A stretch of DNA of 35,336 nt, taken from an uncultured Pyrinomonadaceae bacterium (GTDB lineage Bacteria; Acidobacteriota; Blastocatellia; Pyrinomonadales; Pyrinomonadaceae). The stretch lies in NCBI GenBank assembly GCA_902805935.1, contig CADCUR010000086.1, forward strand, positions 1 through 35,336, given 5' to 3'. Each line of letters opens with the position of its first letter. Within the stretch, counting starts at the first letter, position 1. The notes under the pieces are model-generated. The model was not told the origin of the DNA, made no database searches, and saw only the letters and a program-made list of their open reading frames with translations. A program made the translations under genes and the position numbers. Shown piece by piece: positions 32,055-35,266 of the stretch.

Positions 32055-32163
32055 TTTTGGATTTTAGATTTTGGATTGGAACTTTGGACAAAATTTTTGT
32101 TTCGTCTGAAATTACAATTTTGATTAGTCCGAAATCTAAAATCTAAAATCCAAAATCTAAAAT
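32054..32163. repeat. Inverted repeat of AAATCTA/AAATCCA heptamers between ybaB and recR
   Basis: The left arm (32054-32077) iterates ATTTTGG, ATTTTAG, ATTTTGG. The right arm (32132-32163) iterates AAATCTA, AAATCTA, AAATCCA, AAATCTA, AAAT. The left arm starts at the last base of the ybaB TAA stop and the right arm runs into the recR ATG at 32162. No Shine-Dalgarno is left for recR. Confidence 0.88.
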
Positions 32164-32776
32164 GTTAGATTATTCAGAACCCGTCGCCAAATTAATTGAC
32201 GAATTCAAACGTCTGCCCGGTGTCGGTCATAAATCGGCACAGCGGCTGGCGTTTCATATTCTTCGCCGCCCGCAGGAAGAAGTCGAAAGATTCGTTGACG
32301 CGCTGCACGAAGTTAAAGAAAAAATCGTTTTCTGTTCGGTGTGCAACAATCTGACCGATATTAATCCGTGTATGTATTGCGCTTCGACGACGCGCGACCG
32401 TTCAATCATCTGCATCGTCGAAGAACCGTATAATCTTGTCGCCGTCGAAAAAACGCGCTCGTACAAAGGCTTGTATCACATTCTCCACGGCTCGCTCTCG
32501 CCAATTCGCGGCGTTGGTCCCGACGAGCTGATGCTGGCGAATCTGATGCCGCGTCTGATGCCGAATAACAATGAAGGCGTGGAAATCAAAGAAGTAATCG
32601 TCGCCACCAACCCGACGACCGAAGGCGAAGCGACGGCGAATTATATCGCTCGGCTTCTAAAACCGCTCGGCGTGCGCGTCACCCGTATTGCGATGGGAAT
32701 GCCCGTCGGTTCCGATCTGGAATTTGTGGACGAGGTAACGATGGATAAGGCTCTAGCGAACCGTCACGAAATTTAA
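32162..32776 (+). CDS. recR: Recombination mediator RecR
   Basis: 204 residues, the usual RecR length. The HhH segment [17 protein letters not shown] is at 18-34, the zinc finger has Cys58, Cys61, Cys70 and Cys73 ([17 protein letters not shown]), and a Toprim domain starts at IICIVEE. The C-terminal Walker-like region [26 protein letters not shown] is conserved. With RecF/RecO it loads RecA on gapped DNA. The ATG is preceded only by the A/T-rich heptamer repeat. Confidence 0.97.
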
Positions 32777-32900: not shown

Positions 32901-33935
32901 TTACGCGGATTTAACGCGTTTGATTTGTCTGACATCTGCCGTTTGCGCGTTGTTTGTTTTTGCCACTCGCGCCGTCATTCTTTCGTCCAAATCGGCGATT
33001 TGTTCAGCCGTCAGATGATATATGTTCGGTTGATTGTGATAAATTCTCGCGCCGGTCACGATGTCGGCTTGTTTGAAACCGTTCGCTTCCGCCTTCTTTA
33101 TCAAATCCTCAATCGTCATCGTCTGCGGCGCAATCGAAACCGGAGTTTTATCTTCGATAAATTCCGGCACGTCTGATTTCTTTGGTTGCTCGAACGCCAG
33201 TTCTAACGCCTGCTCGCCTTTCATGTGTTCAAGAAAATCTTTGAAACCGGTGTTGCCCGTCATCTCGAATCCGACTTCAAACGCCGGTGAATTCGATTTT
33301 ACGACTTGAAAAACTCTGGTGATTTCGCCGTCGCGTTCCTGCAGCGAGACTTCAATCATTACATCCACGAAATACTCAAGACCGCTCGCCGTCATCGGCA
33401 GCACGCGCCCGATTTCGTTATCTTCTTTTGATTCTTTGCCGCGCGCCGGAATTTGGTCGGCGATAACGACGCATTTGCCGCTTTCGATGCAAAGTTTGCG
33501 CAGAACATTCTGCAAAATCATCTGGTCGGCAGCGAGTTCTTCCGCACTCGGCTGTGCCAGCGGGTCGCCGGTTCTGTCTCGCACCGCTTCAAGCATTTCC
33601 GAATGTTTTGCACTGAAATACGCCGCCCAACTGTCGAGTCCGAAACAGCCGTAATTTTGTTCACGTCCTTCGCCGTTGATTGCCCATTCGATAAATTCCG
33701 GCAACTCGTCAGTCTGTTCGATTTCCAGAGCGTCAAATGTCTGTCCGACTCCGCGCAACAGACGGGCTTTTCTTTCGGTGTCGAAAATGCAGAGTTTCCC
33801 CAGACCCGCTTCCGCCATCGAACTGACAAAATGACTTTTTCCAACGCCCGCGCCGCCGCGAATCGCCATAATCAGCCGCTGTTGACGCGGCACGCGGCTC
33901 AATGGATTTATTTTCGGTTTATTTGTAGTTTTCAT
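32901..33935 (-). CDS. Phage-type RecA-fold ATPase (Sak4/AAA_24-like)
   Basis: 344 residues. GGAGA (complement of 33944-33948) lies 8 bases before the ATG. Walker A GGAGVGKS is at 27-34, FDTE at 51-54, and the Walker B strand CFGLDSW ends at Asp101. The layout (short N-terminus, P-loop, CIFDTERKA, then KCVVIADQIPARGKE) matches phage single-strand-annealing-associated Sak4-like ATPases and AAA_24 nucleotide-binding proteins. A C-terminal region (about 260-344) ends in a helical tail with HLTAEQIADLDERM. No other phage gene is near. It stands alone between recR and a secreted-protein gene, with an elaborate operator region, so it may be a captured recombination gene. Role in repair or phage interaction is inference. 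Confidence 0.75.
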   Translation of the reverse strand: MKTTNKPKINPLSRVPRQQRLIMAIRGGAGVGKSHFVSSMAEAGLGKLCIFDTERKARLLRGVGQTFDALEIEQTDELPEFIEWAINGEGREQNYGCFGLDSWAAYFSAKHSEMLEAVRDRTGDPLAQPSAEELAADQMILQNVLRKLCIESGKCVVIADQIPARGKESKEDNEIGRVLPMTASGLEYFVDVMIEVSLQERDGEITRVFQVVKSNSPAFEVGFEMTGNTGFKDFLEHMKGEQALELAFEQPKKSDVPEFIEDKTPVSIAPQTMTIEDLIKKAEANGFKQADIVTGARIYHNQPNIYHLTAEQIADLDERMTARVAKTNNAQTADVRQIKRVKSA

Positions 33936-34018: not shown

Positions 34019-34034
34019 GTATCACTGATGAAAC
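34019..34034. promoter_or_regulatory. Palindromic operator-like site O2
   Basis: GTATCACTGATGAAAC is a 16-base palindrome with a 6-4-6 layout and one mismatch (GTATCA/TGAAAC). It spans the predicted transcription start of the Sak4-like gene, just downstream of the -10. It shares its layout and half-site TGAAAC with O1 at 34058-34073; the centres are 39 bases apart. Confidence 0.6.
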
Positions 34035-34035
34035 A

Positions 34036-34064
34036 AATCTAGCATAAGTTGTTTTGTGTTTCAA
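34036..34064 (-). promoter_or_regulatory. Promoter of the Sak4-like ATPase gene
   Basis: On the minus strand TTGAAA (complement of 34059-34064) is followed by 17 bases and TAGATT (complement of 34036-34041), with an extended -10 TGC directly in front. The predicted start near 34029 gives a leader of about 94 bases. Confidence 0.65.
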
Positions 34065-34073
34065 GTGTGAAAC
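34058..34073. promoter_or_regulatory. Palindromic operator-like site O1
   Basis: GTTTCAAGTGTGAAAC is a perfect 6-4-6 palindrome (GTTTCA/TGAAAC) that overlaps the -35 of the Sak4-like gene promoter. Together with O2 it brackets the promoter. A dimeric repressor of the LexA or phage-repressor kind could occupy both; its identity is not visible here. Confidence 0.65.
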
Positions 34074-34129: not shown

Positions 34130-34163
34130 AAAAAGCGACGAGTGTAAATACCTGTCGCTTTTT
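34130..34163 (-). terminator. Terminator of the RskA-like secreted protein gene
   Basis: On the minus strand AAAAAGCGAC (complement of 34154-34163) pairs with GTCGCTTTTT (complement of 34130-34139) around a 14-base loop and runs into TTTTATTT. It lies 24 bases after the stop of the gene at 34187. The remaining gap to the Sak4-like promoter shows no gene. Confidence 0.8.
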
Positions 34164-34186
34164 CCGAAATGAATTTCTAATTTTGA

Positions 34187-35266
34187 TTAGGGGGTAACGC
34201 TGAAAGTCGAATACATTTTCCCTGATGGCTGCAAAACGTCTTTCTCTTCAATCGTAACTAGCAACCCGAAATCTTTAAGTGCCGTTTCACCGCGAATTTC
34301 AGCTTCGGCACGGTTGCCGTTGTTGATAACCTGCCCAATTTTCGTATACTCCTTAGCAGCTGAAACCGCCCAGAGGACATACCTTTTTTGTTTCGGCGCC
34401 AATTTCATATCGTCGAAACGCATTTTTATTTTCGTTAACCCCGCTTTACTATTATCGAGATATGCCTTTCCCTTTAATCCTTCCAACTCGCCCGAAAAAT
34501 TTACTCTGATTTCCGTCTCGCCTTTTTCAAAACCGGTAACGCCGAGCAATGGAACGTCATAAGTGGAAGAAACCATTTGCGTCCCTGCAACTTGTTTATC
34601 GTCGCCACTGATCGGACTCGAGGTTCTATTATTAACAACGGCGTAACCTTTCGGCACGGCACTGCGAAAAACCACCGGCGTATCATTGGCAATACTCGTC
34701 AAGCCTTCGTTCGGCGACAGAACCAGCATAAACTGATTAAGCGGTGTTTTGAATGCCGCTTTCGCCATTCCTTTTTCCGAGTTAATTGGTCCGAGATATG
34801 TAACCGCGCCAGATGGGTCAACCGCGTAGGCATGGTAACTAGTCGTGTCGTTTCCAACTCCGCTCAAATCAAAATCAACCATTGTTTCGTTGTTCATGCG
34901 CATCACGCGAGCCGAGCCTTTCGCGCCGCTCATACTCGTCATTGGCGTCAAATCAACGACAACTTCCTTATTAACCGGATATTCGATAACGCTGTATGTG
35001 CCGTCGGAGTTCTGTACCACTTCGCTTTTCGTTGTTGTGGTCGTCGTTTTGGTAGCCGTTACAGGCGTTGGCGACGGCGATGGCATATCCATCGGACTCG
35101 GCGATGGAAACGGTGTTGGCGATTCGCTCGGCGTGGGGAAAGGAGTCGGCGATCCGCTCGGTGATGGAAACGGTGTTGGACTAGGCGTTTGCGCCAGAGA
35201 TGTTCCAGCCAAACAAACCGAAAAAATCAATCCCGTTCCAAATTTGAATAATCTGTTCTTAAACAT
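34187..35266 (-). CDS. Secreted protein with Pro/Thr-rich linker and two RskA-like modules
   Basis: 359 residues; GGGAGG (complement of 35279-35284) lies 12 bases before the ATG. Signal peptide 1-25 ends SLAQ. Residues 26-75 are a Pro/Ser/Thr tract (SPTPFPSPS units) encoded by a 30-base tandem repeat. Two related beta domains follow, at about 110-215 and 245-359. Each carries the pattern Y-x-x-(Y/W)-A-V, a short G-containing turn, then LGPI or IGQVI and a closing FxLxVxxE-like strand (YHAYAVDPSGAVTYLGPIN; YVLWAVSAAKEYTKIGQVIN). This resembles the extracytoplasmic domain of RskA-type anti-sigma factors, but there is no membrane helix or sigma-binding part. The protein may be a free or surface-exposed version. 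Function is unknown. Confidence 0.75.
   Translation of the reverse strand: MFKNRLFKFGTGLIFSVCLAGTSLAQTPSPTPFPSPSGSPTPFPTPSESPTPFPSPSPMDMPSPSPTPVTATKTTTTTTKSEVVQNSDGTYSVIEYPVNKEVVVDLTPMTSMSGAKGSARVMRMNNETMVDFDLSGVGNDTTSYHAYAVDPSGAVTYLGPINSEKGMAKAAFKTPLNQFMLVLSPNEGLTSIANDTPVVFRSAVPKGYAVVNNRTSSPISGDDKQVAGTQMVSSTYDVPLLGVTGFEKGETEIRVNFSGELEGLKGKAYLDNSKAGLTKIKMRFDDMKLAPKQKRYVLWAVSAAKEYTKIGQVINNGNRAEAEIRGETALKDFGLLVTIEEKDVLQPSGKMYSTFSVTP
35100..35187. repeat. 30-base tandem repeat encoding the Pro/Thr linker
   Basis: Three units of 30 bases start at 35100, 35130 and 35160, each beginning GG(C/T)G and sharing GGAAACGG(T/A)GT(T/C)GG and the (G)CTCGG junction; the third is incomplete. They encode a ten-residue Pro/Ser/Thr unit in the secreted protein on the opposite strand. 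Length variation between strains would change linker length without a frameshift. Confidence 0.8.

Follow-up and report, generated by a model that had tools for sequence, protein, structure and literature searches.

Twin palindromes at a sak4 promoter point to a candidate XRE repressor regulon over recombination genes in Pyrinomonadaceae

Introduction

In the genome of an uncultured Pyrinomonadaceae bacterium (phylum Acidobacteriota), two matching palindromes bracket the promoter of a gene for a Sak4-like ATPase. Which protein recognizes them, and which other genes share this control? An earlier note on the stretch of 35,336 nucleotides analysed here (the window; assembly GCA_902805935.1, contig CADCUR010000086.1) had taken the palindromes for twin operators of a dimeric repressor, either LexA or a phage repressor. 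The answer that we consider probable, though well short of certain, is that the sites are operators of an XRE repressor regulon over recombination genes, and that an M78 protein relieves repression upon DNA damage. Acidobacteriota soil bacteria would then appear to run their recombination genes by a switch resembling the radiation response of Deinococcus and not by the classical SOS repressor. This reading predicts how recombination is controlled in an abundant soil lineage, and it extends IrrE/DdrO-like control of recA well beyond the Deinococcus group. Operator, regulator and targets are all named, so that each can be tested.

The sak4 locus

The sak4 gene (positions 32901–33935, minus strand) encodes a P-loop ATPase of 344 aa. 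The protein matches PHROG 124, the “Sak4-like ssDNA annealing protein” (E=1.1e-8), over its N-terminal 95 residues (residues 8–102), while a Pfam search returned no match. Orthologues are present in 16 of 39 relatives. Convergent with sak4 lies a recR-like recombination gene (32162–32776, plus strand), recognized as an open reading frame and assigned to its family by our own reading of the sequence. The order of the two genes is the same in a relative (G004), no phage genes were seen at the locus, and a comparison with 50,697 phage records found no protein similar to the Sak4-like ATPase. On these grounds, the locus is chromosomal housekeeping DNA.

The minus strand from 34073 to 34019, read directly, is GTTTCACACTTGAAAC-ACAAAACAACTTATGCTAGATTT-GTTTCATCAGTGATAC, in which the outer elements are 6-4-6 palindromes in a register of 39 bp. 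Putative operator site 1 (34058–34073, minus strand; GTTTCACACTTGAAAC) is a perfect GTTTCA-N4-TGAAAC palindrome that covers the -35 region; the -35 hexamer, TTGAAA as read from the sequence (34059–34064, minus strand), lies inside it. A 17-bp spacer leads to the -10 hexamer TAGATT (34036–34041, minus strand), which is preceded by the TGC of an extended -10. Putative operator site 2 (34019–34034, minus strand; GTTTCATCAGTGATAC) carries one mismatch (GTATCA on the plus strand). It starts two bases past the -10, and transcription is expected to begin within it, at about position 34029. Written out on the minus strand, the promoter is GTTTCACAC-TTGAAA-C...17-bp spacer...TGC-TAGATT-T-GTTTCATCAGTGATAC. 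The sequence bears out the arrangement described in the earlier note, that of twin sites around an extended -10 promoter, and since they lie over the -35 and the start, repression is favoured over activation.

Both sites are kept at exactly 39 bp in all eight sak4 loci of the genus that were examined, and the -10-like sequence is similar in the genus orthologues. The sak4 loci of other genera retain one palindrome with at most one mismatch in seven of eight cases.

Between the sak4 promoter and the next gene upstream (34187–35266, minus strand) lies an inverted repeat of terminator-like form with a T-run after it (34133–34165, minus strand; AGCGAC...GTCGCTTTTTT). The upstream gene encodes a secreted proline/serine-rich protein without Pfam or PHROG match.

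Recurrence of the motif

The consensus GTTKCA-N4-TGMAAC recurs in the genome and in its relatives. At the base composition of the window, chance would supply 0.002 perfect copies per window and 0.22 per genome of 3.87 Mb; for a perfect copy accompanied by a one-mismatch copy no more than 60 bp away, the expectation is about 5e-7 per window. Against the 0.22 expected, the genome holds four perfect copies, every one of them before a recombination gene. Eight relatives of the genus contain 51 perfect copies, compared with 8 for the reversed control, and about 41 of the 51 are located at the targets listed below, an assignment made by our own judgement. Copy counts and conservation together rule out a chance palindrome. 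The earlier note had staked its reading on just these two observations, further copies in the genome and conservation before orthologous genes, and both were found, one of the copies being that before recA. None of the four perfect copies precedes a dnaE2/imuB-type gene.

Looser matches behave differently. Elsewhere in the window, 11 matches with two mismatches were found for 7.2 ± 3.5 expected, which is chance level. Other one-mismatch copies in the genome, outside the listed targets, mostly fall within genes or precede unrelated ones, and we regard them as chance matches. In the regions fetched from relatives devoid of the XRE gene, perfect copies lie inside genes (two genomes) or 194 bp before an unrelated gene (one genome), positions that fit chance as well.

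Targets of the candidate regulon

Besides the sak4 site, the genome carries perfect copies 94 bp before recA (contig C174), about 50 bp before an isolated gene for a 149-aa Rad52-family protein (contig C224), and in a second twin, with a spacing of 38 bp, between a SWIM-Rad52 gene and a divergent XRE gene (contig C92). By our own reading, the promoter that faces the Rad52 gene on C92 has TTGCAA inside the first palindrome, followed by 17 bp, TACAAT and, just after it, the second palindrome. This is the architecture of the sak4 promoter, with TTGCAA in the position of the sak4 -35.

In relatives of the genus, perfect copies are also found before ruvA, a second ruvB, the topoisomerase IB gene and a gene for an uncharacterised protein of 190 aa. 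With up to two mismatches allowed, a recA site is present in 19 of the 19 family genomes for which a usable recA was fetched, versus none of the 11 genomes that represent other families. Likewise, the paralogous second ruvB has a site in 13 of 13 loci, versus none of 17 for other ruvB copies. As defined by its sites, this would be a regulon of recombination and DNA-repair genes that includes recA. Of the earlier interpretation, the twin operators, the geometry of repression, co-control with recA and the theme of DNA damage and recombination are supported; the binders that it proposed are not (see below).

A few features of these targets may be mentioned. In many family genomes, the second RuvB is encoded apart from the ruvAB locus and has its own operator (seven loci), with topoisomerase IB or an XPB-like helicase as neighbours. 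The protein of about 190 aa (SKKxxILxLYxxGxT...), which has no match in Pfam or NCBIfam, is a frequent regulon member (seven loci), and its gene is also found 3' of the rad52-like gene at four loci. At four further loci, ruvA and a gene for a rex-like redox regulator diverge from each other, with the ruvA operator in between.

The XRE protein as candidate binder

As binder of the sites, the best candidate is an XRE repressor encoded on the chromosome, together with an IrrE-like partner; the earlier note named neither. The XRE gene (C92:4157-4555) encodes a Cro/C1-type protein of 132 aa and is divergent from the SWIM-Rad52 gene. Only one of the family genomes searched is without it, and its presence tracks that of the sites: relatives devoid of XRE have a recA without the site. 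In other families, the XRE/M78 pair can be present though recA has no site.

Of 79 Acidobacteriota records, which comprise Pyrinomonadaceae and other Blastocatellia, 65 have twin sites 38 bp apart upstream of the XRE gene. XRE proteins typically autoregulate via palindromes (PMC12565409), and judged from the sequence, autoregulation through the twin operator is likely here. However, the divergent neighbour of the XRE gene is usually Rad52-like, and the twin is missing at three checked XRE loci without a divergent gene; it may therefore serve the divergent rad52-like promoter. The helix-turn-helix of the protein matches those of many XRE proteins, DdrO included. In a fold search with its predicted structure, a weak model (pTM 0.42), DdrO came at rank 3 with a TM score of 0.40, too poor a basis for placing the C-terminal domain with that of DdrO.

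We infer the following scheme. Dimers of the XRE repressor, encoded at a distance from sak4, would bind both sak4 palindromes and so block RNA polymerase at two points of the promoter, the -35 and the start. The same protein would repress recA, ruvA, the ruvB paralogue, topoisomerase IB and two genes for Rad52-like annealing proteins, and probably its own gene from the twin operator in the divergent promoter region. Upon DNA damage, repression would most likely be lifted by the M78 protein, in the way that IrrE acts on DdrO.

Other candidate binders

That the sites are instead SOS boxes of an acidobacterial LexA, one of the options of the earlier note, must be considered very unlikely. LexA is found in most family genomes, recA, ruvA and ruvB belong to the classic SOS set, and the site is a 16-bp palindrome. 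However, LexA usually autoregulates, and the four readable lexA upstream regions of the family contain no conserved site, the best being a three-mismatch match in one of them. Moreover, a 99 % complete relative (G015) in which no LexA domain was detected keeps the recA and XRE sites with two mismatches, and three LexA-positive but XRE-negative relatives (G025, G027 and G031) have a recA without the site. Together, these observations make LexA the weaker candidate. The second option, a phage repressor in control of a phage-derived sak4, is scarcely credible. It draws on the fact that phages are the best-known source of Sak4-like proteins, but sak4 lies on the chromosome beside recR, as it does in a relative, the phage records hold no counterpart of its product, and the same sites precede recA and the ruv genes.

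A less specific alternative is fairly unlikely but has more to recommend it: another regulator, whether activator or repressor, could bind the sites, with the XRE gene merely one of its targets. Binding by XRE is indeed deduced from the distribution and position of the sites, and the twin upstream of the XRE gene is perhaps part of the divergent rad52-like promoter. Nevertheless, the parallel distribution of XRE gene and sites, the autoregulatory habit of XRE proteins and site positions that fit repression all speak for the XRE protein itself.

The M78 (ImmA/IrrE-fold) partner

A gene of the M78 family co-occurs with the XRE gene: both are absent from the same 9 of 39 relatives, five of six XRE-positive genomes outside the family have M78 too, and at many loci the two genes lie near each other. 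Of 197 genomes from the phylum as a whole, 15 yielded the M78 orthologue; 14 of these belong to one family and the last to the same class. No M78 gene was detected in three family genomes, all incomplete assemblies, among them that of the window. The latter is 90 % complete and also without ruvB, so that it may yet have the M78 gene.

The M78 protein of the relatives matches PF06114 (E=1e-14), and IrrE/PprI are the sole credible PDB relatives of its profile (E 0.002). With its predicted fold (pLDDT 83), the top 11 matches, at modest scores, were mycobacterial IrrE-like regulators, IrrE, PprI and CapP. The metal motif is EExxH and not HExxH, the first zinc histidine being replaced by glutamate in every aligned member, which makes proteolysis by the protein uncertain. 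The second glutamate, the second histidine and a downstream acidic cluster are retained; metal binding by Glu/His/Glu is therefore possible.

The XRE repressor could thus be bound to its operators as proposed and yet be released allosterically, with the M78 protein as a ligand-binding sensor rather than a protease. This is a variant of the preferred scheme, compatible with it, and a realistic possibility despite falling short of an even chance. The glutamate found throughout in place of the histidine points to it, as do the mycobacterial IrrE-like transcription regulators, which ranked first in the fold search, and a GAF-SpoIIE phosphatase gene that often follows the M78 gene in many genomes; the metal ligands that are retained speak against it. 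Brought together, these elements would make up a LexA-independent DNA-damage response of Acidobacteriota, in which an EExxH protein of IrrE fold, possibly a non-proteolytic sensor acting with the GAF-SpoIIE phosphatase, lifts XRE from recA, ruvA/ruvB, topoisomerase IB and three Rad52-like or Sak4-like genes. In this complete form the proposal is doubtful, albeit possible.

A primase-like gene is also often found 3' of the M78 gene, and in several genera a DnaG-like protein with CHC2 and Toprim domains is encoded in the XRE-M78 gene cluster (four loci).

Relation to known systems

The closest known parallel to the proposed XRE/M78 switch is DdrO/IrrE (PprI) of Deinococcus, which likewise combines a small XRE repressor, an M78/IrrE-fold partner, coexistence with LexA, a regulon with recA, ruvB and an annealing protein, and operators near promoter elements (PMC8533742, PMC8072749). 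The DdrO regulon of D. radiodurans includes recA, ruvB and ddrA (PMC8533742). An IrrE-fold partner is present in the relatives, though none was found in the genome of the window, and the sites outline a repair regulon with recA. However, the operator is GTTKCA-N4-TGMAAC and not the 17-bp RDRM of Deinococcus (TATGYYHTTARCRKA), and EExxH replaces the HExxH zinc site of IrrE; for these two reasons the pair is not classed as a member of the DdrO/IrrE system. PprI, moreover, carries in the same chain a GAF-like domain required for activation by ssDNA (PMC10904395), whereas the M78 protein has no fused domain of this type but a GAF-SpoIIE gene nearby. Targets here also include sak4, ruvA and topoisomerase IB, and the phylum is Acidobacteriota. 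The lineage is new, and so are the operator, the set of targets and the altered metal site; how an IrrE-fold protein would signal with a site of this kind becomes a question in itself. None of the papers in the collection searched joins DdrO, IrrE and Acidobacteria.

The pair can be counted among the XRE/COG2856 pairs, a broader and widespread kind (PMC8072749), since its XRE gene lies close to an M78-fold gene or occurs in the same genomes as one. CapH/CapP of CBASS operons also consists of an XRE repressor and an M78 partner, reportedly activated by ssDNA (PMC10904395), and CapP is among the fold matches noted above; it controls an immune operon, in contrast to the dispersed chromosomal recombination regulon proposed here. 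ImmR/ImmA of ICEBs1 and prophages is again an XRE and M78 pair (PMC8072749), but here no mobile element was seen and the targets are housekeeping recombination genes. The LexA SOS regulon shares recA and ruv targets and palindromic operators over promoters; it differs in that the readable lexA genes have no site here and that LexA presence does not track the sites. Finally, DdiA of Myxococcus xanthus is another XRE regulator; it acts in a DNA-damage response that is in part independent of LexA (PMC12288472).
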